This document shows, in pieces, positions 7,966-57,373 of a stretch of DNA of 57,373 nucleotides. The notes under the pieces were generated by a model. The model was not told where the DNA came from. It searched no databases and saw only the letters and a program-made list of their open reading frames with translations. Every line of letters starts with the position of its first letter. Position 1 is the first letter of the stretch. The position numbers were made by a program, and so were the translations under genes. Source of the DNA: Pseudofrankia coriaricola (lineage in GTDB: Bacteria > Actinomycetota > Actinomycetes > Frankiales > Frankiaceae); contig NZ_MBLO01000225.1 of the NCBI RefSeq assembly GCF_001854805.1, forward strand, positions 1-57,373, given 5' to 3'.

Positions 7966-8481
7966 GCCCCGATGGTAGCTCCCCCACCGATCTGACAGAC
8001 CCGACCAGTCCTCGGCCCGGATGCTCGGCGCTGGTTCGGGGCCCGCAGTCAGATCGGCGGGGACCCCTCGCCTGGGTAGACGCCAAACCAGACCGTGTCC
8101 CGGACGCTCGGCGCTGGTTCGGGGTCGGCAGTCAGATCGGCGGGGACCCCTCCTGCTTCCCCACCGATCTGACAGACCCGGCTAGACCCTTGTCCGAACG
8201 CCCTGCTCCATCCGGGCCGGTCGTCAGATCCGGACCTCCCAGATCACGACCTCCCAGATCGCTGACCTCCCAGATCACGACCTCCCAGATCGGCTTCGCC
8301 GATCTGGCAGGGACCCCGTCCGCCGATCCGGCAGGGACCCTGTCGCCGATCCGGCAGGGACCCCGTCCGCAAGCTCCGCCGATCCGGCAGGAACCCCGGG
8401 GGACCCCTCGCGTGGGTAGACGTCAAGTAGCGGGGCGGCTGAGGTCGGCACGCGCGTCGGGGGGTCTGGCAGGCTCGGGGT
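7966..8481. repeat. Composite intergenic repeat cluster (R1-type modules)
   Basis: This 516-bp gap is almost entirely repeats. CCACCGATCTGACAGACCC occurs at 7984 and 8161. A block of about 54 bp (ACGCTCGGCGCTGGTTCGGG to GGCGGGGACCCCTC) occurs at 8016-8070 and 8099-8152, offset by 83 bp. GACCTCCCAGATC is repeated four times from 8233. A perfect hairpin (GATCGGC-TTC-GCCGATC) lies at 8288-8304 and is followed by four GCCGATC-GGCAGGRACCC units to 8397. GGGGACCCCTCGCSTGGGTA occurs at 8059 and 8399. No open frame with protein-like composition is present. In mycobacteria glucosyl-3-phosphoglycerate synthase (gpgS) lies between these two genes; here it is absent. Confidence 0.8.
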
Positions 8482-9423
8482 GTGTCTCGTGACGTCGCCG
8501 TGCCCACAGGTCCGCCCCAGGCAGCCGCGCGGGCGGCACCGGGTCCCGAGCGGCGGCCGGGGCCGCTGCGGCTCGGGACGCGGGTGTTCGGGCCGACCGA
8601 GACGGTCGTCATGGCAATCGTGAACCGGACACCGGACTCGTTCTTCGACCGCGGCTCCACCTACGGCGAGGCCGAGGCTCTGGCCGCCGTCGACCGGGCG
8701 ATCGCCGAGGGCGCGGGGATCATCGACATCGGCGCGGTCAAGGCCGCCCCCGGCGGCGAGGTGAGCCCGGTCGAGGAGCTGCGCCGCATCGGCGGGTTCG
8801 TCGCCCGGGTGCGCGCCGCCCACCCGGACGCGGTGATCAGCGTGGACACCTGGCGGGCCGAGGTCGGCCGGGTGGTGGTCGGCGAGGGAGCCGACCTGCT
8901 CAACGACGCCTGGGGTGGCGTGGAACCGGAACTCGCCGAGGTCGCGGCCGAGGGCGGAGTGGGCCTGGTCTGCACGCACGCCGGCCACCTGCCGCCGCGG
9001 ACCCGCCCGCACCGGATGAGCTATCCGGATGTCGTGGCCGACATCGTGGCCACCACCAGCGCACTCGCCGAGCGCGCCGTCGCGGCCGGGGTGCGCCCTG
9101 ATGCGGTGATCATCGACCCGGGGCACGACTTCGGCAAGAACAGCCGGCATTCGCTCGAGGCGACCAGGCGGACCGATGAGCTGGTCGCCACCGGGTGGCC
9201 GGTGCTGATGGCGATGTCGAACAAGGACTTCATCGGCGAGGCGCTCGACGCGGCCGTCGAGGAGCGGCTGGAGGGCACCCTCGCGGCGACCGCCGTCAGC
9301 GCCTGGCTGGGCGCCCGCGTCTTCCGCGCCCACCAGGTGGGAGCGACCCGTCGCATCCTGCGCATGGTGGCGGCCATCCGCGGCGACGCCGACCTAGCCG
9401 TGGCCCGCCGCGGCGTCGTCTGA
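8482..9423 (+). CDS. folP2: Dihydropteroate synthase-like protein, FolP2 type
   Basis: A 313-residue pterin-binding TIM barrel. The first signature is NRTPDSFFDRG. The second signature, usually DIGGESTRPGA in active synthases, is here DIGAVKAAPGGEVSPVEE, the change that marks the FolP2 group. The substrate and metal segments ISVDTWRAEV, LLNDAWGG and DPGHDFGKN remain. In mycobacteria FolP2 does not replace FolP1 for folate synthesis, so this may not be the sulfonamide target; that is knowledge of the family, not seen here. Start at GTG 8482 without a clear ribosome site; the first 35 residues are non-conserved, so a later start is possible. Confidence 0.85.
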   Translation: MSRDVAVPTGPPQAAARAAPGPERRPGPLRLGTRVFGPTETVVMAIVNRTPDSFFDRGSTYGEAEALAAVDRAIAEGAGIIDIGAVKAAPGGEVSPVEELRRIGGFVARVRAAHPDAVISVDTWRAEVGRVVVGEGADLLNDAWGGVEPELAEVAAEGGVGLVCTHAGHLPPRTRPHRMSYPDVVADIVATTSALAERAVAAGVRPDAVIIDPGHDFGKNSRHSLEATRRTDELVATGWPVLMAMSNKDFIGEALDAAVEERLEGTLAATAVSAWLGARVFRAHQVGATRRILRMVAAIRGDADLAVARRGVV

Positions 9424-9437
9424 GGCGGTCCCGCGGC

Positions 9438-9712
9438 GGACGCTTCGCGCCCGCCGCCGGGCGCCGCCTGTCGGGCGCTGAGCCTGACCTCCCAGATCGG
9501 CTTCGCCGATCCGGCAGGGACCCTGCTCCCCACGTGGTACCGAGGCTGAGGCGTATGACGGTGGTGGGCCTGATTCCGGGCTGACGACGTGGCTGGGTTG
9601 GCGCTGCGCTGATGCGCCGTCACCTTCTGTGGCCGAGTTGCGCATATTGCTCGCTAGAACGACGTCACATCCGCCGCGCGGCTTGATGCCGAGACCCTTG
9701 GGACGTCCAGAA
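9438..9712 (+). repeat. R2 dispersed repeat, copy A (contains an R1 module)
   Basis: Fills the gap between convergent folP2 and the LOG gene. Landmarks in order: GGACGCTTCGCGCCC, TGTCGGGCGCTGAGC, the R1 module (9483-9530), CACGTGGTACCG, GTATGACGGTGGTGGGC, CGGGCTGACGACGTGG, GGGTTGGC, a small hairpin GCGCTGATGCGC, CGTCACC, TGGCCGAGTTGCGC, CTAGAACGACGTC and CCGCCGCGCGGCTTG. The same landmarks recur at 12530-12725 (inverted), 25681-25880, 46992-47210 and, in part, 57215-57373. Confidence 0.85.
9483..9530 (+). repeat. R1 hairpin module within R2 copy A
   Basis: 48 bp, identical in full to the inverted copy at 12633-12680. The core is a perfect 7-bp stem with a 3-base loop, GATCGGC-TTC-GCCGATC (9495-9511), followed by CGGCAGGGACCC. 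The sites at 25.7 kb and 47.0 kb, otherwise like R2 copy A, lack this module. Confidence 0.9.
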
Positions 9713-12491: not shown

Positions 12492-12529
12492 GCCCGCACC
12501 CTATTGCCGAGCGTCCCGATGCCAAGCCA

Positions 12530-12725
12530 GCCACCGCCGGTGACAGCGCCTCTAGCGCAGCGTCAACGCAACCACGTCGTCAGCCCGGCACCACTCCAGC
12601 CACCGTCATACGCCTGTACCCGGCACCACGCGGGGAGCAGGGTCCCTGCCGGATCGGCGAAGCCGATCTGGGAGGTCAGGCTCAGCGCCCGACAGGCGCT
12701 GCCCGGTTGTGGGCGCGGAGCGTCC
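12530..12725 (-). repeat. R2 dispersed repeat, copy B (inverted, contains R1)
   Basis: Lies between the stop of dapD and the start of dapE. Read on the minus strand it shows GGACGCTCCGCGCCC, TGTCGGGCGCTGAGC, the complete R1 module (12633-12680), CGCGTGGTGCCG, GTATGACGGTGGCTGG, CGGGCTGACGACGTGGTT, GCGTTGACGC and CTGTCACCGG. It matches copy A over more than 60 bp around R1 almost without change, so the two are recent relatives. Confidence 0.85.
12633..12680 (-). repeat. R1 hairpin module within R2 copy B
   Basis: 48 bp, reverse complement of 9483-9530 with no mismatch. The hairpin core is at 12652-12668. Confidence 0.9.
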
Positions 12726-12740
12726 AGCAACGGGAGCGCC

Positions 12741-13580
12741 TCAGGCGCTGACGCCGTGCTCACGCAGGATGTCATTGAGGGCCAGCTTGTCGTGGATCTG
12801 GCCCTCGGCGAGGGTGCGCAGCACCACGATGCAGGGCATCGCGAAGTCCCCGCCCGGGAAGTTCTTGACCCGGCTGGCGCCGACCGCGACGGCCCGCTCC
12901 GGGATCTCGCCGCGCGGGTACTCCTCGCCGGTCGTGGCGTCGAACACGTGGGTGGACGCGGTGAGGATCGAACCGGCCCCGAGCTTCGCGCCACGGCGGA
13001 CCCGGGCGCCGTCGACCACCATGCACCGGCTGCCGACGAAGGCATCGTCCTCGATGACGACCGGCACGGCGTTCGGCGGCTCGAGCACGCCGCCGAGGCC
13101 GACACCACCGGAGAGGTGCACGTTGCGGCCGACCTGCGCGCACGAGCCGACGGTCGCCCAGGTGTCCACGAGGGTGCCGGAGTCGACGTAGCCGCCAATG
13201 TTGGTGTAGCTCGGCATGAGCACGGCGCCGGGCGCGATGTGAGCGCCCCAGCGGACGATCGCGCCCGGGACGACGCGGACACCGTCGAACCGGGTCTTGA
13301 GCGGCACCCGGTCGTGGTATTGGAAGGCACCGGCCGCCGACTCGACCATCGGCAGGACCTTGAAGGACAGCAGGATGGCCCGCTTGGCCCGCTCGTCGAC
13401 GACGACCGCGCCGCTCGCCGCGACCTGTGCGACCCGGGCCTCGCCCGCGTCGATGGCGTCGACGGCCGCGACCACGGCCTTGCGGGCGTCGGAGTCGTCC
13501 GGGCTCAGCTCGGCCCGGCGCTCCCAGAGCTCGTCGACGACGGGGTCAAGCGGAGAGGCGAAGGATTCAGAGGTGCTCAC
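12741..13580 (-). CDS. dapD: 2,3,4,5-tetrahydropyridine-2,6-dicarboxylate N-succinyltransferase
   Basis: A 279-residue left-handed beta-helix acyltransferase that succinylates tetrahydrodipicolinate. The hexapeptide-repeat part runs from about residue 125 to 225 (GVLMPS-type coils, GGYVDSGTLVDTWATVGSCA, GSRCMVVDGARVRRGAKLGA). The substrate region YHDRVPLKTRFDGVRVVPGA and the glycine-rich GGVGLGGVLEPP segment fit the actinobacterial group. I chose the GTG at 13580 (STSESFASPLD); the frame remains open to 13682, but that part looks non-coding. dapC, dapD and dapE lie in line on the minus strand, each separated by a repeat-bearing gap. Confidence 0.93.
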   Translation of the reverse strand: MSTSESFASPLDPVVDELWERRAELSPDDSDARKAVVAAVDAIDAGEARVAQVAASGAVVVDERAKRAILLSFKVLPMVESAAGAFQYHDRVPLKTRFDGVRVVPGAIVRWGAHIAPGAVLMPSYTNIGGYVDSGTLVDTWATVGSCAQVGRNVHLSGGVGLGGVLEPPNAVPVVIEDDAFVGSRCMVVDGARVRRGAKLGAGSILTASTHVFDATTGEEYPRGEIPERAVAVGASRVKNFPGGDFAMPCIVVLRTLAEGQIHDKLALNDILREHGVSA

Positions 13581-13700
13581 CCGCCCGACCCTAACCGCCC
13601 TGGACGGAGGAACAGGCCGAGGAGGTGCGAGGGGCGCAGCTGCCCACGGACCTCGGCTGGCCGGTCCTGGCGCCAGCCCCACGGGACCGGACGGCTAGAG

Positions 13701-13836
13701 GGCCAAAGGAGGTGCGAAAATGCTCCTCCTTCGCACCTCCGGAGGCCCCCGTCCCAGAAGCACTAACGGGCCAAAGGAGGTGCGAAAATGCTCCTCCTTC
13801 GCACCTCCGGAGGCCCCCGTCCCAGAAGCACTGACG
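13701..13836. repeat. R4: two 68-bp tandem repeats, each with a strong hairpin
   Basis: Units at 13701-13768 and 13769-13836 differ by a single base (CACTAACGG versus CACTGACGG). Each has a perfect 11-bp stem, GGAGGTGCGAA / TTCGCACCTCC (13708-13718 with 13730-13740 in unit 1), with an 11-base loop. On the plus strand the left arm reads AAAGGAGGTGCGAAAATG, an ideal Shine-Dalgarno at the usual distance from an ATG. The array fills the gap between the end of dapC and the start of dapD; it could serve as a terminator or as a leader structure. Confidence 0.85.
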
Positions 13837-15533: not shown

Positions 15534-15564
15534 TCGGGAGGATCCCGGCGTCCCCGCTGGGCCG

Positions 15565-15745
15565 CTCAGTGCCACTGCTTCGCTCCGTCCGCAACGAACT
15601 CCGGCCCCGTCCTCGCTTCGCTCAGACGTGACCTCCGCTCGTTGCCTCCTGCGCTCAATGCCACGGCTGAGCTCCGTCCGCAACGAGCTCCGGCCCCGTC
15701 CTCGCTTCGCTCAGACGTGACCTCCGCTCGTTGCCTCCTGCGCTC
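15565..15745. repeat. R3: 89-bp tandem repeat in the dapC-fdxA gap
   Basis: GCTCCGTCCGCAACGARCTC starts at 15582 and again at 15671. The shared continuation is CGGCCCCGTCCTCGCTTCGC, then TCAGACGTGACCTCCGCTCG and TTGCCTCCTGCGCTCA; copies differ by about one base over 65. The last unit runs into the fdxA stop codon. A diverged third copy lies upstream of galE at about 19960-20022. Confidence 0.85.
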
Positions 15746-25662: not shown

Positions 25663-25680
25663 GCCTTGAGTTTACGGATC

Positions 25681-25880
25681 GGACGCTCCGCGCCCGATCC
25701 TGTCGGGCGCTGCGCGCCCTCTTCACGTGGTCCTGAGCACAGGCCCATGGCGATGGTCGGGCTGGGCCCAGGTCGGCGAGGTGGTCGCGTTGGCACAGCG
25801 CCAATGCACGGTCACTGTCGGTGGCCGGGCTGCACGACTGGCTCGCCAGAACAACGTCACGCCCTGCCTGGGGGTTGTCG
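25681..25880 (+). repeat. R2 dispersed repeat, copy C (no R1)
   Basis: Occupies the divergent ychF-rmuC promoter gap. Landmarks: GGACGCTCCGCGCCCGATCC, TGTCGGGCGCTGCGCGCCC, CACGTGGTCCTGAG, CATGGCGATGGTCGGGCTGG, GGTGGTCGCGTTGGCA, GCGCCAATGCAC and CGCCAGAACAACGTCACGCC. It is the most diverged full-length copy and lacks the R1 module. Confidence 0.75.
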
Positions 25881-36322: not shown

Positions 36323-37573
36323 TCAGGATGCCGGCGGCGCGTTCGGGTCCGGGGCGACGGGAACGTACTGCCAGGCCAGGCGGGACAGGCCCGAGATGGT
36401 CTCGACGCCGATGGCCATGGTTCGGCTGTCGCGGGTGTAGGCGGCCATGATGTAGTCCTTGCCGGCGCCGTGCACGTGGGCGAGGCTGTTGATCACCCAG
36501 CCGCCGCCGTAGGGCAGCCAGCCATTCTTGATCTCTACCGACACGCCGGCCGGCACGCCGGCGGTCAGGCCCCAGCGCTGCGACGGGATGACCGTGTCCA
36601 GCAGGCCGGTGGCGGTCGCCATGGCGTTCGGGGACAAGCCCGAATCCGGATAGGAGACGGCCCGCAGCACGCGAAGCTGGTCGTAGGCGGTCGTCTTGGT
36701 CAGCCCCCAGGCCCCGCTCCGGCCGGCCGTGGTCGCGGTCATTCCTAGCCCGCGGAAGAACGCGTTCATCCCACTCTGCGCGCCGGCCGCACGCCATAGC
36801 GCGCTCGCCGACCCGTTGTCGCTGATGGAGATCATCGGCCTGGCTAGCCGCAGCTGCCCGGCCGTGAGCTGGCCGCTCTCGCCGGTCTTCGTGAGTAGCG
36901 CCGTCAGGATGTCGAGCTTGACCGTGCTGGCGGTCTCCCAGCCGTTCCGGGCGGAGTTCGTGACGTCCACGGTCAGTCCGGTGGCCCGGTCGTACAGGGC
37001 GACGCTGACGGCCCCGGGGCGCGTGGCCAGGTAGGAGCGGAACTCCGCCGCGAGGACAGGCGCGAACGACGGGTCCGGTTCAGCCGCGGCCGGCGGGCCG
37101 CTCGCGGTCGTCGGCGGCGCCGACCCGGCCGGCGCCAGCTCCCAGGTCGCCGCCGGGGATGCTGACGCGGATGTCGGCCCGGTCGGCCCGGTCGGCCCCG
37201 TCGGCGCGGTCAGTACGGCCGGCACGGCGGTCGGAGCCGGGGGCGTCGCGCCGGCCGATGTCGCACTGCCCGATGTGGCGCCGCCCGGTGTCGCGACCGC
37301 GAAGTCGATGCCGAAAATCCCCGCGAGCACCGAGTCGTCGGGGGCGTCCGTCGACCTCGTCGGCGCGGCCCGCTCGACGACGGCGGCGGTGGGCGGCGCG
37401 GCGTCGTCGAGCGCCGCCGCGGTCGCGGCCGTGGTGAAGGGCGGGACGCCGACGGCCGCGAGCGCGGCGACCCCCACGGCGGCCGTCAGGCCAGCCAGCC
37501 GCGAGCGAGAACGCGCCCGCGCGCGGCGACGGCGAGCCGACCGGCCGGAAACCATGACCGAATTTGTATGCAT
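36323..37573 (-). CDS. Exported serine hydrolase with class A beta-lactamase motifs, long paralogue
   Basis: A 416-residue protein with a basic N-terminus, a signal/anchor helix (about residues 27-53) and a disordered Pro/Thr/Ser linker to about 165 that contains a GPTGPTGPT stretch. The hydrolase domain follows. Active-site motifs are S216-T-V-K219, S251-D-N253 and K349-N-G351 (class A enzymes have KTG). The omega-loop glutamate region (E166 in class A numbering) is not recognisable, so beta-lactam hydrolysis is doubtful and a peptidoglycan role is more likely. ATG 37573; a second ATG at 37555. The domain is about two-thirds identical to the next gene, a tandem duplication. Confidence 0.8.
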   Translation of the reverse strand: MHTNSVMVSGRSARRRRARARSRSRLAGLTAAVGVAALAAVGVPPFTTAATAAALDDAAPPTAAVVERAAPTRSTDAPDDSVLAGIFGIDFAVATPGGATSGSATSAGATPPAPTAVPAVLTAPTGPTGPTGPTSASASPAATWELAPAGSAPPTTASGPPAAAEPDPSFAPVLAAEFRSYLATRPGAVSVALYDRATGLTVDVTNSARNGWETASTVKLDILTALLTKTGESGQLTAGQLRLARPMISISDNGSASALWRAAGAQSGMNAFFRGLGMTATTAGRSGAWGLTKTTAYDQLRVLRAVSYPDSGLSPNAMATATGLLDTVIPSQRWGLTAGVPAGVSVEIKNGWLPYGGGWVINSLAHVHGAGKDYIMAAYTRDSRTMAIGVETISGLSRLAWQYVPVAPDPNAPPAS

Positions 37574-37677: not shown

Positions 37678-38556
37678 TCAGGCCGCCGGCACTGTCGACC
37701 AGGCGAGGCGAGACAGGCCAGAGATGGTGTTGATGCCCGTCTGCTCGGTCGCACTGTTGCGCGTGTAGACGGCCATGACATAGTCCTTGCCGGCCCCGTG
37801 CACGTGGGCAAGGCTGTTGACCACCCAGCCGCCGTCATAGGGCAGCCAGCCGTTCTTGAGCTGGAGCCGGACACCTGTCGGCACGCCCGCGGTCAGGCCC
37901 CAGCGCTGCGCCGGGATGACCGTGTCCAGCAGGCCGGTGGCCGTGGCCCGCGCGTTCGAGGACAGGACCGCGCCCGGGTAGGAGACCGCGCGCAGGACCT
38001 TGAGCTGGTCCAGGGCGGTGGTTTTCGTCAGGCCCCACTTGCCGCCGGCCCCGGCCGCCGTCGAGGTCATCCCGAGCCTGCGGAAGAACGCGTTCATCCC
38101 GCTCCGCCCGCCGGCCTGGTTCCACAGGGAGCTGGCCGCCACGTTGTCGCTGACCGAGATCATCGGCTTCGCCAGCTTCAGCTGCGCGGCCGTGAGTTTT
38201 CCGTTCTGCCCAGTTTTCGAGAGCAGGTCGGTCAGAATGTCCAGCTTTACCGTGCTCGCCGTCTCCCAGCCAGTACGGGGTGATTTGGTGACGTAGACGG
38301 TCCGGCCGCTGCGCCGGTCAAAGAGGGCGACGCTGACGGAACCCGGCCTGGTCGCGAGGTAGGAACGCCACTTCGCGGCCAGCGCGGAGGTGAACGACGA
38401 CGTCGTCGCCGCCGAGGCCGCGTTGGCCACCGGACCGGCCGCGACCAGCGCGATGGCGATGATCCCAGCACTGATCAAACCAGCTAGACGCACCTGGAGC
38501 CGCGCTGCGCCACCCGGGCGGCACGAAAGAACGGAACGACCATGAAAAAGCGCCAT
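37678..38556 (-). CDS. Exported serine hydrolase with class A beta-lactamase motifs, short paralogue
   Basis: A 292-residue protein with a signal peptide (LAGLISAGIIAIALVAAGPV, possible cleavage after ANA at about 46) and the same hydrolase domain as its neighbour, without the long linker. Motifs: S101-T-V-K104, S136-D-N138, K234-N-G236. As in the neighbour the omega-loop glutamate is not found. Shared long stretches include SYLATRPGxVSVAL, GWETASTVKLDILT and GLLDTVIPxQRWGLTAGVP. ATG 38556 has no ribosome site and the upstream DNA is unusually AT-rich. Confidence 0.8.
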   Translation of the reverse strand: MALFHGRSVLSCRPGGAARLQVRLAGLISAGIIAIALVAAGPVANAASAATTSSFTSALAAKWRSYLATRPGSVSVALFDRRSGRTVYVTKSPRTGWETASTVKLDILTDLLSKTGQNGKLTAAQLKLAKPMISVSDNVAASSLWNQAGGRSGMNAFFRRLGMTSTAAGAGGKWGLTKTTALDQLKVLRAVSYPGAVLSSNARATATGLLDTVIPAQRWGLTAGVPTGVRLQLKNGWLPYDGGWVVNSLAHVHGAGKDYVMAVYTRNSATEQTGINTISGLSRLAWSTVPAA

Positions 38557-42405: not shown

Positions 42406-44244
42406 GTGACCAGGACAGCGCGGACCTTCCTGATCGCAGACCTCCCGGCAGATCTGCCTGATCGGCTTTGCCGATCGGGCAGGGACCCCGGGCGGAGCCG
42501 ATCCGGCGGGAATCCCGTCGCCGATCGGGCCGGGACCCCGGGAACGACAGCGCCCGGCGGGACGGCGCCCGGACGGCCCACGGCCCGCGGCCGGACCACG
42601 CTGCGGCTGCTGGGTGCCGGCCTCGCGGCCACGGCGCTGGCCACGACGGTGGCGGCCTGCGGTGGAGGCAAGGACAAGCCGACGGGGCCACTCAACGTCA
42701 CCGTCACCCGCGGCCAGGAAGCGTCGGCGCCGTTCGCCTCGACAGGTGGCGAGGTCATCCTCGACCTGGGCACGGCGTCGCCGGAAGCGTCCTGGGGGAC
42801 GAACGGCGGCGAGTCCGCGGTCGTCTCGCTCTACGTCGACGACACCTACACGACGGACCTCGTCATCCCGGCGTCGTTCTCGATCCCGCGCAGCCTCGAC
42901 CTGGGCAACGTGCCGGCCGGCGACCACACCCTGAAGGTGAAGTTCGCCGATGACCGCTCCCCCGCCGCCGCCCACACGGCCAACCTCACGAACCTGAAGT
43001 TCCGCACCGTCACCGCCGCCGACGCCGGTTTCGCCGCCACCCAGTACGCCCCGGTCATCTACGGGCGCACCGGCCAGGGGGCGACGCCGGACGTCAGCGG
43101 GCCGTTCCAGAGCGCGGTGACCGACACCCCGATGGTCGAGTTCCACACCGAGGCCGCCTCGCCGACCACCGGCAACAAGATCTACCGCTACTCGGTCATC
43201 TACTCGAACGAGGACGGCGCCGCCTCTGTCCCGGAGACGCTCGCCCAGTGGGGGCGTAGCACCGACATCGCCTGGGTCTACCAGGTGGAGGTCAACGCCG
43301 CCGGTCAGGTCGTCCCCGGGAGCGCCGCCGTCCAGGGCCAGGACGGCTCCACCGTCCCCTTCACCGGCGGTTACGAGGGTACGCACGCCGTCGTCCAGAC
43401 CTGCGGGCTCGCCAACAGCGTGTGCGGGAAGACGGACGGGCAGATGCGTTTCTCGCTGTCCGCGCTCGACAGCCTCGACCCGCGGAGCGAGGCGCCCGAG
43501 GGGATCATGGACCGCAATCCGTGGACGTACTGGATGATGTCGCAGGAGCTCGTCCGCGAAGGCAAGACCGCCGAGGATCCGATCGACGACCCGACGGGGA
43601 GCCCGACCCAGCTGGCCGGTGACCCGCGGTCCTACCTCTACCTGGTGCTGCGCAAGTCCACTCAGGGCACGCCCAACACCGACGCGGCCTGGGTCGGGGT
43701 GTCGGTCGGCGTCAAGCTGGCCGGCAACCCGACGATCTACCGGTCGGACCTCGGAGTGGCCAAGTGGTCGCTCAGGCGGGACGAGCCGGCCGCGACCGCG
43801 ATCGAGCTGCCGCCGGGAACCGTGGCCGAGGACATCGAGCAGATTCGTGCGCTCCGGGTGGTCGGTTTGGGCCGGGACACCAAGGCGACGGTCCAGGTCG
43901 AGTCGATCGAGCGGGCCTTCTTCCTGGACGCCGACTACAAGCCGCAGGAGTCATTCCTGTTTGCTCCGGTGAAGGCCACGCTGACCTCGGCGAGCCCGGC
44001 CGTGACCCTGCTCGACCGCGCGAACGGACCGATCATCCGGACCAGTGCGTCCCCGACCGGGTCCGCCGACCCGAACGCGACGCCTTCCTCGACCGACACC
44101 CCGCTGCTGCCTGGGATCACGATCAGCCCGAGCATGTCGGTGAACCTGCCCGGGGGGAAGTCGCCGTCGGCGACGGCCACGCAGCCGTCCGCGCCCAGGA
44201 CCACCGATGCGTCGTCCAGAGCTACGCCGACAGCCACGCCCTGA
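42406..44244 (+). CDS. Secreted lipoprotein of unknown function with a repeat-derived N-terminus
   Basis: A 612-residue protein. A hydrophobic signal (LRLLGAGLAATALATTV, residues 66-82) ends in a lipobox VAAC with lipidated Cys85. The exported part (about 440 residues) is beta-rich and ends in a Ser/Thr/Pro tail. I do not recognise the fold; a C-x5-C pair (TCGLANSVC) is present. Oddly, residues 10-50 before the signal are encoded by R1-type repeats (42430-42545). No ATG, GTG or TTG is in frame between 42406 and the signal, and GTG 42406 has GGAGG upstream, so the repeat seems to be translated unless a CTG start is used. Confidence 0.75.
   Translation: MTRTARTFLIADLPADLPDRLCRSGRDPGRSRSGGNPVADRAGTPGTTAPGGTAPGRPTARGRTTLRLLGAGLAATALATTVAACGGGKDKPTGPLNVTVTRGQEASAPFASTGGEVILDLGTASPEASWGTNGGESAVVSLYVDDTYTTDLVIPASFSIPRSLDLGNVPAGDHTLKVKFADDRSPAAAHTANLTNLKFRTVTAADAGFAATQYAPVIYGRTGQGATPDVSGPFQSAVTDTPMVEFHTEAASPTTGNKIYRYSVIYSNEDGAASVPETLAQWGRSTDIAWVYQVEVNAAGQVVPGSAAVQGQDGSTVPFTGGYEGTHAVVQTCGLANSVCGKTDGQMRFSLSALDSLDPRSEAPEGIMDRNPWTYWMMSQELVREGKTAEDPIDDPTGSPTQLAGDPRSYLYLVLRKSTQGTPNTDAAWVGVSVGVKLAGNPTIYRSDLGVAKWSLRRDEPAATAIELPPGTVAEDIEQIRALRVVGLGRDTKATVQVESIERAFFLDADYKPQESFLFAPVKATLTSASPAVTLLDRANGPIIRTSASPTGSADPNATPSSTDTPLLPGITISPSMSVNLPGGKSPSATATQPSAPRTTDASSRATPTATP
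42430..42545 (+). repeat. R1-type repeat array inside the lipoprotein reading frame
   Basis: Contains GACCTCCCGGCAGATC, a perfect hairpin GATCGGC-TTT-GCCGATC (42460-42476) followed by GGGCAGGGACCCCG, then GCCGATCCGGCGGGAATCCC and GCCGATCGGGCCGGGACCCC. It is the same family as 8288-8397 and 9483-9530, but here it is in frame with a gene. Confidence 0.8.
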
Positions 44245-46110: not shown

Positions 46111-46923
46111 GTGGGCACTCGGGTGATTGAGAACTACCTCATCGACATGGACGGCGTCCTCGTGCACGAGGCGCAACCCATCCCGGGCGCGGACCGGTTC
46201 CTCGCCTCGATCACGTCCGCCGGCCTTGGCTACCTGGTCCTGACCAACAACTCGATGTTCACCGCCCGGGACCTGCAGGCCCGGCTGCGTGGCTCGGGCC
46301 TCGACATCCCGGCCGAGCGGATCTGGACGTCGGCGCTGGCCACCGCCAAGTTCCTCGACACCCAGCGCCCCGGCGGGACCGCCTACGTCGCCGGCGAGGC
46401 GGGTCTGACGACGGCGCTGCACGAGATCGGGTACGTCCTCACCGACCGCTCGCCCGACTACTTCGTGCTCGGCGAGACCAGAACGTACAGCTTCGAGACG
46501 ATCACCAAGGCGATCCGGCTGGTGCGCGACGGCGCCCGGTTCATCGCGACGAACCCTGACCCGACGGGCCCCTCCGCCGAGGGCCTGTTGCCGGCGACCG
46601 GCTCGGTCGCCGCCATGATCACCAAGGCCACCGGAATCGATCCCTACTACGTAGGCAAGCCCAACCCGCTCATGATGCGCACCGGCCTCAACCGCCTCTC
46701 CGCGCACAGCGAGACCACCGTCATGATCGGTGACCGGATGGACACCGACGTGATCGCCGGTCTCGAGGCCGGGATGGACACCGTGCTCGTCCTGTCCGGC
46801 ATCACCGCCCGCGCCGACATCGAGCGCTACCCCTTCCGCCCGACCGCCATCGTGGGCAGCGTCGCCGACATCCAGGTCGGCCAGGACGTCCACACCCTGA
46901 CGACAACCGGCGAGACGGCCTAA
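46111..46923 (+). CDS. HAD-IIA (NagD-like) phosphatase
   Basis: A 270-residue HAD phosphatase of the NagD subgroup. Motif I is LIDMDGVLVHE, motif II is LVLTNNSMFTARDL, motif III Lys is in YYVGKPNPLMM and the acidic motif IV is MIGDRMDTDVIAGLEAGMDT. E. coli NagD prefers UMP and GMP; the substrate here is unknown. GTG 46111 has a GGAG close upstream. Followed by R2 copy D. Confidence 0.88.
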   Translation: MGTRVIENYLIDMDGVLVHEAQPIPGADRFLASITSAGLGYLVLTNNSMFTARDLQARLRGSGLDIPAERIWTSALATAKFLDTQRPGGTAYVAGEAGLTTALHEIGYVLTDRSPDYFVLGETRTYSFETITKAIRLVRDGARFIATNPDPTGPSAEGLLPATGSVAAMITKATGIDPYYVGKPNPLMMRTGLNRLSAHSETTVMIGDRMDTDVIAGLEAGMDTVLVLSGITARADIERYPFRPTAIVGSVADIQVGQDVHTLTTTGETA

Positions 46924-46991
46924 TGCCACTCCAGCGAGCGTTCACCCGACGCTGAAACCAGCGAAATCAGGATCAGTCGGGGCGAGGCGCT

Positions 46992-47210
46992 GGACGCGCT
47001 CTCCCCGTGTCGGGCGCTGAGCGCCCTCCTCGCGTGGTGTTGGGCCCTGGCATATGGCGGTGGTAGGGCTTGGGCCGGGCTGACGACGTGGTCGGGTTGG
47101 CATTGCGCCGATGCGCTGTCACCAGGTGTGGCTGAGGTGCGCTTACTGGTCGCTGGAACGGTGTCGCGAGCCGCCGCGCGGCTGGACATCCGAGCCACGG
47201 GATGTCGGTC
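46992..47210 (+). repeat. R2 dispersed repeat, copy D (no R1)
   Basis: Landmarks: GGACGCGCTCTCCCCG, TGTCGGGCGCTGAGCGCCC, TCGCGTGGTGTTGGGCC, CATATGGCGGTGGTAGGGC, CCGGGCTGACGACGTGGTC, GGGTTGGC, GCGCCGATGCGC, TGTCACCAGG, TGTGGCTGAGGTGCGCTTAC, TCGCTGGAACGGTGTCGCG and CCGCCGCGCGGCTGG. It lies between the NagD-like gene and the tetR promoter and lacks the R1 module seen in copies A and B. Confidence 0.85.
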
Positions 47211-47303
47211 GGCAGGCCGCTGGGAAGCCCCGTCCGCGGTTCGGGAGCAGCGCGCCCCCGCCGACGGCGCCCGGATTGCCGGCCTGCACATATCCGCCAG
47301 GAG

Positions 47304-57214: not shown

Positions 57215-57373
57215 CGCTCCGCAGCGGCCCGCGCGCCCCTCCCTGCAACCTACCCACGCAACCCGGCCATAGCCGGTGACAGCGCATTGGCGCACCGCCA
57301 ACCCAGCAACACACCGACCCCGTCCCACGCCGGCCCCGGCCATGCACCTCAGCCCCGAAACCACGCCCAAGAG
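57215..57373 (-). repeat. R2 dispersed repeat, copy E (partial, diverged)
   Basis: Read on the minus strand: GGGTTGGCGGTGCGCCAATG, CGCTGTCACCGG, ATGGCCGGGTTGCGTGGGTA. It matches the second half of R2 (hairpin GCGCCAATGCGC and the GTCACC block) upstream of the DUF255 gene and may continue to the window edge. Confidence 0.6.

Follow-up and report, generated by a model that had tools for sequence, protein, structure and literature searches.

The window, which is the whole 57,373-nucleotide stretch of Pseudofrankia coriaricola DNA analysed here (NCBI RefSeq assembly GCF_001854805.1, contig NZ_MBLO01000225.1, positions 1 to 57,373), holds five copies of a dispersed, non-coding repeat family that we label R2, with about 250 bases per unit. 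A first-pass annotation had proposed five copies of one repeat of roughly 200 bp; all five are present and form one family, the repeat being real and its unit larger than proposed. De novo repeat finding paired 9550-9666 with 25742-25858 (70%) and with 47049-47165 (79%), and 9438-9542 with 12621-12725 in inverted orientation (92%). A whole-genome search with a sequence-only profile built from 39 copies returned expectation (E) values of 6.9e-32 at 47010, 2.2e-25 at 9510, 8.7e-25 at 25702 and 1.0e-19 at 12522; copy 5 (57365-57242, minus strand) gave E = 2.8e-14 in a profile search limited to collected loci. The proposed limits needed correction, to a start at 9424 for copy 1 and at 12740 on the minus strand for copy 2, to 25676-25700 for the first hairpin of copy 3 and about 46979-47206 for copy 4. 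R2 is probably a non-autonomous, palindrome-built mobile repeat of the genus, composite and similar to repetitive extragenic palindromic (REP) sequences and bacterial interspersed mosaic elements (BIMEs), that becomes the 3'-end hairpin of host genes. Its parts in the window, where H1 and H2 are hairpins and R3 is a separate palindrome, are as follows.

9424 to 9712, plus strand: R2 copy 1, whole, beginning right behind the stop codon at 9421-9423
9424 to 9468, plus strand: H1 hairpin of copy 1, class A, with a covarying stem and an RNA fold
9486 to 9523, plus strand: nested palindromic repeat R3 of copy 1, occupying the H2 position
9526 to 9659, plus strand: core of copy 1, a profile match
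12516 to 12740, minus strand: R2 copy 2, whole, beginning right behind the stop of the minus-strand gene 12741-13682
12695 to 12740, minus strand: H1 hairpin of copy 2, class A, from covariation and RNA fold
12640 to 12677, minus strand: nested palindromic repeat R3 of copy 2
12523 to 12637, minus strand: core of copy 2, truncated at its 3' side, a profile match
25676 to 25700, plus strand: H1 hairpin of copy 3, with a locally different stem and a class A-like cap
25701 to 25850, plus strand: H2 and core of copy 3, a profile match, the core common to relative G003
46979 to 47206, plus strand: R2 copy 4, class B, from GGGGCGAG to GGATGTC
47008 to 47158, plus strand: H2 and core of copy 4, a profile match, which served as query
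57242 to 57373, minus strand: R2 copy 5, incomplete, as the contig and with it the window stop at 57373

R2 extends well beyond the window. In the own genome (G000, 11.2 Mb in 280 contigs; same-genus relatives are G001-G007, and L-numbers denote R2-holding loci), a 221-bp query around copy 4 found at least 62 R2 places at E <= 0.01 among the best 40 of 235 candidates. The profile search for further copies, set beforehand as a check, found many, with at least 154 matches at E <= 0.001 and 150 candidates scored per genome. At this threshold six of the seven relatives are positive (33 matches in G001, 23 in G004, 11 in G003, 8 in G005 and 5 each in G002 and G006) and G007 has none. None of 27 genomes from the family's other genera gave a match (E <= 1e-4, with 89 candidates scored in each); a pattern scan of named genomes gave matches in Frankia nepalensis CN7 and Pseudofrankia asymbiotica. 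Plasmid sequences gave zero R2 matches, and a plasmid origin was rejected, and Rfam gave none at gathering score within the window. Copies lie within about 25 bases of the ends of contigs C1, C19, C20, C60, C61, C102 and C169, as well as of the window contig; R2 seems to break the assembly of this genome, and the copy counts are therefore floors. We found no paper naming R2 in its title or abstract, a search that did not cover the full texts of Frankia papers.

We read the anatomy of the repeat from 110 loci or stretches of the own genome (the window, L002-L030 and L109-L188; 582 kb, partly overlapping), chosen for holding R2, which contain 169 core matches, or 152 once identical cores are removed. 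The parts follow one order: H1 hairpin, TGTC, H2 hairpin, TCC, G-rich core, TGTGGCTGGGTTGCGC, GCTCGCCAGAACGACGTC and the 3' end, which in full copies is the recurrent CCATGGGATGTC; a short form, comprising most of L017-L030, lacks about 45 nt before the 3' end. H2 is the TGTC-tagged hairpin GGRCGC-TGA-GCGYCC. H1 occurs in interchangeable classes, A (GGCNNTCCCG...GACGCTCCGCGCC...CGGGCNNNGCC), B (GGGGCGAGGCGCTGGGCGCGCTCGCCCC), C (with a GCGCTGGACGCGC cap) and others. The core carries the recurring blocks CACGTGGT, CATATGGCGGTGGT, GACGACGTGG, GGGTTGGC, GCGC-N4-GCGC and GTCACC, and is G-rich on the R2 strand, with a (G-C)/(G+C) skew of 0.228 in 129 cores versus 0.006 in 167 control stretches. Of 52 class-A caps, 49 are no farther than 120 nt from a core, as are 82 of 82 H2-like places, in a sample chosen by core; the first count led us to set aside H1 as an independent repeat. 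Several copies contain the palindrome R3 (GACCTCCCAGATCGGCTTCGCCGATCCGGCAGGGACCC) nested in their H1, their H2 or their core, and in copies 1 and 2 it stands where other copies have the right arm of H2. Of its 22 places in the sampled own-genome loci, 11 are no more than 120 nt from a core and 11 stand farther off on their own. Within the window it is also found at 8279-8316 and 42451-42488. It occurs alone, clustered or nested in R2 hairpins.

The absence of a shared open frame, as first annotated, holds in that every frame is interrupted in at least one of the 65 full cores, but one antisense frame is stop-free in 49 of them. Codon-phase differences of 0.36, 0.37 and 0.27 in 15 equal-length cores are not coding-like, and a coding reading of the core was dropped as unsupported despite that antisense frame. 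At L113, near position 2669, a conserved upstream frame read by eye appears to run through H1 and to end at the TGA of the H2 loop, where R2 may supply a stop codon.

We compared the window copies with the corresponding regions of six relatives (G001-G006) by synteny, and found empty orthologous sites of the kind that the first-pass annotation had proposed to look for. Copy 1 is absent from the orthologous gap of G001, G002, G004, G005 and G006, the gap in G004 being only TGA-GC-CCTAG between two convergent genes; its flanks could not be cleanly placed in G003, where the region has no core nearby. The gap of copy 2 is empty in all six relatives. The core of copy 3 is present only in G003 among the relatives compared, G004 having the stem of H1, a part resembling H2 and a short sub-threshold piece similar to the core; the orthologous stem is kept in both, with a different cap. 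The divergent gene pair around copy 3 also exists in G001 without a core, and the earlier claim that promoters must lie inside R2 in two cases was not demonstrated. Copy 5 has orthologous copies in G001 and G004. The flanks of copy 4 (window 46909-47300) are 391 bp apart here versus about 2.4-2.5 kb in G001 and G004, which have no R2 core between them; copy 4 marks the joint where DNA was deleted or replaced.

Beyond the window, a joined-flank query for about 15 of 26 chosen loci and the fetching of counterparts allowed comparison of 13 loci. The core is absent from all 13 fetched G001 counterparts (that of L020 being a partial match only) and from six of seven in G004, the exception being L206. 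Over informative sites, G001 lacks R2 at 13 of 14 (L006, which was not fetched, adjoins a G001 copy) and G004 at six of nine, where two additional sites are filled, one beside L111 and the other at L120, which corresponds to L052. At class A empty sites the gene of the relatives ends at an identical codon position, in many cases with a different stop codon, and unrelated DNA follows. Two loci, L004 and L017, have clean class B joints: the empty sites read TGTC|GGCG and TGTC|CGGC and the filled ones TGTC-GGGGCGAG...GGGATGKC-TGTC, with TGTC on either side. L011 lacks 33 bp of target and retains a single TGTC. R2 is thus gained and lost between close species, and its turnover, high copy number, restriction to one genus and covarying hairpins agree with the earlier proposal of an intergenic element, mobile or structured, that belongs to this lineage.

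Insertion polymorphism is also expected of a miniature inverted-repeat transposable element (MITE), and R2 could be a classical MITE belonging to a DDE or HUH insertion sequence, the autonomous partner having been lost or overlooked. The precise class B joints, the recurrent 3' end and the existence of some close copies (nearest-core identity up to 97.7%, median 87%, in 105 cores) are consistent with such an origin, which we nevertheless regard as improbable. Terminal inverted repeats are absent: in class B the two ends, GGGGCGAG... and ...GGGATGTC, are not inverted versions of one another, and the same holds for class A. Left flanks vary, the class B triplet before CGGGG being TGT in 18, TGC in 5 and something else in 9 of 32 copies, often unlike the right-hand TGTC, and a target duplication was not established. 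An 18-nt pattern of the 3' end, with one mismatch allowed, occurs at 19 places in the own genome, and 19/19 hold an R2 core, which argues that R2 is not the end of a longer insertion sequence. Matches to PF01797, the Y1 transposase of IS200 and of REP-associated tyrosine transposases (RAYTs), number zero in the own genome and one in the eight genus genomes, so that seven of eight have none; DDE transposases were not searched for. PF04986 (IS91-type Y2) gave no match, its control likewise giving none. Group II intron maturases match four times in the own genome and eight times in G005; they do not track copy number, G005 having only its eight R2 matches, and we rejected their involvement. The first-pass comparison with a MITE is therefore unsupported if the term is taken strictly.

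The position of R2 relative to genes supports its reading as a mobile repeat that ends up as a host gene's terminal hairpin. Genes were called with a custom, simple codon-position GC score, so that single calls can err; an upstream gene was called for 121 of 130 copies of sufficient length (nine dropped). It runs in the R2 sense in 90 of these 121 (p = 7e-8), or 78 of 108 by distinct gene ends, which were counted separately because tandem copies share one gene. The earlier argument from differing gene contexts is thus half right: arrangements do vary between tandem, convergent and divergent, with 54 of 107 R2-holding gene pairs tandem and distances to the next gene widely variable, but the same-sense upstream gene recurs, and convergent pairs are in excess (39/107 versus 25/189 neighbouring pairs without R2, p = 7e-6). 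H1 often begins at zero spacing behind the stop of that gene. Comparing gene ends that have a same-sense R2 within 130 nt with controls that have none within 330 nt, we found the GGC of H1 right behind the stop at 44 of 67 R2-bearing ends versus 9 of 223 control ends (Fisher p = 4e-26). The first 5 nt behind the stop pair exactly with the nucleotides just before the core in 19 of 60 cases; offset -1 gives 12 of 60, and the remaining offsets give 0-6. In the relatives GGC stands directly at the stop in 13 of 21 R2 gene ends, a set with no control and with a few members orthologous to own copies.

All three stop codons serve (TGA 35, TAG 18, TAA 14). TAA is enriched threefold before R2, at 14/67 versus 15/223 other gene ends (p = 0.002). 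An automatic stem finder, which misses bulged stems, recovered a stop triplet for no more than 13 of 60 non-B stems, and a simple hairpin finder put 3 of 78 R2 hairpins at offset 0 at its lowest threshold versus 4 of 155 controls; we believe that the internal loop of H1 defeats both finders, and then turned to the sequence-based test of stop adjacency. Transfer RNA ends were rejected as alternative docking sites: of 11 loci only L182 has tRNAs, and these do not adjoin R2.

Docking may reflect either a choice at insertion or retention afterwards. For copy 1 the ancestral gap was maybe a few bases, and selection alone could explain its position; this could hardly be so for 44 of 67 ends. A possible but doubtful extension is that the insertion machinery itself recognises gene ends and docks R2 in sense exactly behind the stop, as a replacement 3'-end hairpin whose arms are swapped as cassettes.

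The hairpins themselves covary. We aligned 25 class-A sequences, namely copies 1 and 2, 17 of 19 listed own copies (two duplicates dropped) and six from relatives that were picked by eye, with one gap moved by hand for the register of the inner stem. Over 22 H1 and H2 pairs, 98.7% of cells are paired versus 44-48% in slid controls. Cells with a double change number 44 against a shuffle mean of 12.5, a value that 0 of 2000 shuffles reach, and pairs with a double change number 7 against 4.6, reached by 14 of 2000, in shuffles that ignore relatedness. Between orthologues of the own genome and G004 (L120/L052 and L115/L206) several stem pairs have changed on both sides next to almost unchanged coding DNA; in H2 of L120 one G-C pair has become A-T by a double change, and L113/L032 have one compensated stem pair. 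RNA folds are better than shuffles for copy 1 (z -3.18, 9421-9540, which includes R3), copy 2 (-3.14) and L122 (-3.80). At two loci, L122 and L145, the end of the gene and its stop codon are part of the left arm, to which the right arm is exactly complementary at the outer end.

This last arrangement, together with the compensated changes between close orthologues, would also follow if the hairpins were kept by a mutational process, namely quasi-palindrome correction by template switching, and not by selection, docking then being the survival of the least-disturbing insertions. We consider this unlikely. Survival alone does not yield zero spacing at different stops when the gaps offer other allowed positions, and control gene ends rarely begin with GGC (the 9 of 223 given above).

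The docking at stops, the excess of convergent pairs, the covarying stems and the skew of the core, hence a C-rich antisense transcript, together fit a further account in which R2 is first of all a functional cassette for ending transcription, and owes its spread by recombination to its usefulness. It would perhaps be bidirectional, with H1 and H2 acting on one strand and a C-rich Rho-type loading stretch on the other. Presence and absence turn over at orthologous genes, however, class B copies lie elsewhere, some of them upstream of genes, half of the R2-bearing gene pairs are tandem and the T tract of a terminator is missing, and on balance we find this account rather unlikely.

Several observations weigh against R2 as a mobile repeat that becomes its host genes' terminal hairpin. 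None of the enzyme families searched, DDE transposases not being among them, supplied a mobilising enzyme. None of 32 class B hairpins with a found stem abuts a called gene end, some lying behind a class A H1, and docking therefore does not extend to every member of the family. At L110 the core is missing from both relatives, yet their joint reads TGA-GGC, which is either a decayed copy or a pre-existing GGC. Sites common to several species (copies 3 and 5, L006, L111, L113, L115 and L120) mean that not all copies are recent. Extra pair types in H1 and H2 do not exceed the shuffles, which ignore relatedness (11 versus 10.2), and L113 and L051 differ without full compensation. The covariance test proposed at first pass on a folded consensus succeeds for the H1 and H2 stems and fails for the core, where 4 of 33 pairs predicted by RNAalifold from 39 copies have any double change; with no Rfam match in the window either, we rejected the core as an RNA gene. 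Folds are unremarkable for copy 3 (25673-25740, z -1.76) and copy 4 (z -0.41). H1 is followed by TGTCGG with no T run and is therefore not a canonical intrinsic terminator.

As a mobile hairpin repeat, R2 would spread on single-stranded hairpin DNA, through transposition or template switching, and not through DDE cutting of inverted repeats. It would be placed or retained where H1 becomes the 3'-terminal hairpin of a gene, and there H1 may end transcription or hold up 3' RNA decay. The matched arm changes may persist through selection for the hairpin, through copying from one paralogue to another or through repair that uses the hairpin as template.

Other repeats in the window are a direct pair at 36371-36670 and 37699-37998 (300 nt, 82%) and tandem arrays at 15563-15740 (89-nt unit, 94%) and 13695-13830 (68-nt unit, 97%).

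Among known systems, R2 is nearest in behaviour to REPs and BIMEs, above all to the CGTC-tagged REPs, which in the portions of PMC3733652 that describe them are likewise without a dedicated transposase. R2 differs from that description in its size of about 250 bp, its long non-palindromic core, its fixed order of parts and its zero-spacing docking at stops. Stems of CGTC REPs have AT pairs at their first two positions, and a CCA tail, whereas H2 of R2, TGTC GGGCGC..GCGCCC TCC, starts with GG; the phyla listed there for CGTC repeats are five, Actinobacteria not among them. For E. coli, PMC12306157 places 446 of 4,072 REPs (11%) no farther than 15 nt from a stop codon and, for hairpins near stops as in R2, proposes effects on translation; the R2 figure of 44 of 67 with GGC directly at the stop compares with that 11% across denominators that differ in kind. 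The REPs and REP doublets (REPINs) that depend on RAYTs come with the PF01797 transposase, which has no match in the own genome and a match in one of eight genus genomes. REPs and REPINs are also short tagged palindromes (20-40 bp, the tag at one foot) scattered through intergenic DNA; H2 carries a TGTC tag, but all 82 H2-like places of the core-chosen sample are close to a core. Mycobacterial interspersed repetitive units (MIRUs) are, as part of PMC12548453 presents them, also actinobacterial mobile intergenic units placed at the level of codons; they insert at start codons and carry a coupling open reading frame, whereas R2 docks at stop codons of all three kinds. With MITEs, as outlined in part of PMC10969869, R2 shares being short, non-coding, non-autonomous and present in high copy, and it differs in having no terminal inverted repeats, no proven target duplication and no partner insertion sequence seen. 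Because at least one defining feature of each is missing, we file R2 as neither a MITE, a RAYT-dependent REP, a CGTC REP nor a MIRU; it is REP- and BIME-like in its workings, with MIRUs as a distant actinobacterial parallel.

Small repeats that settle behind genes are common. What is unusual in R2 is that it docks with nucleotide exactness at any of the three stops and that its hairpins change by matched pairs between close relatives. The family can be used as a presence/absence marker within the genus, and it makes testable both how palindromic repeats spread without a dedicated transposase and how high-GC actinobacteria gain and replace the 3' ends of their genes.
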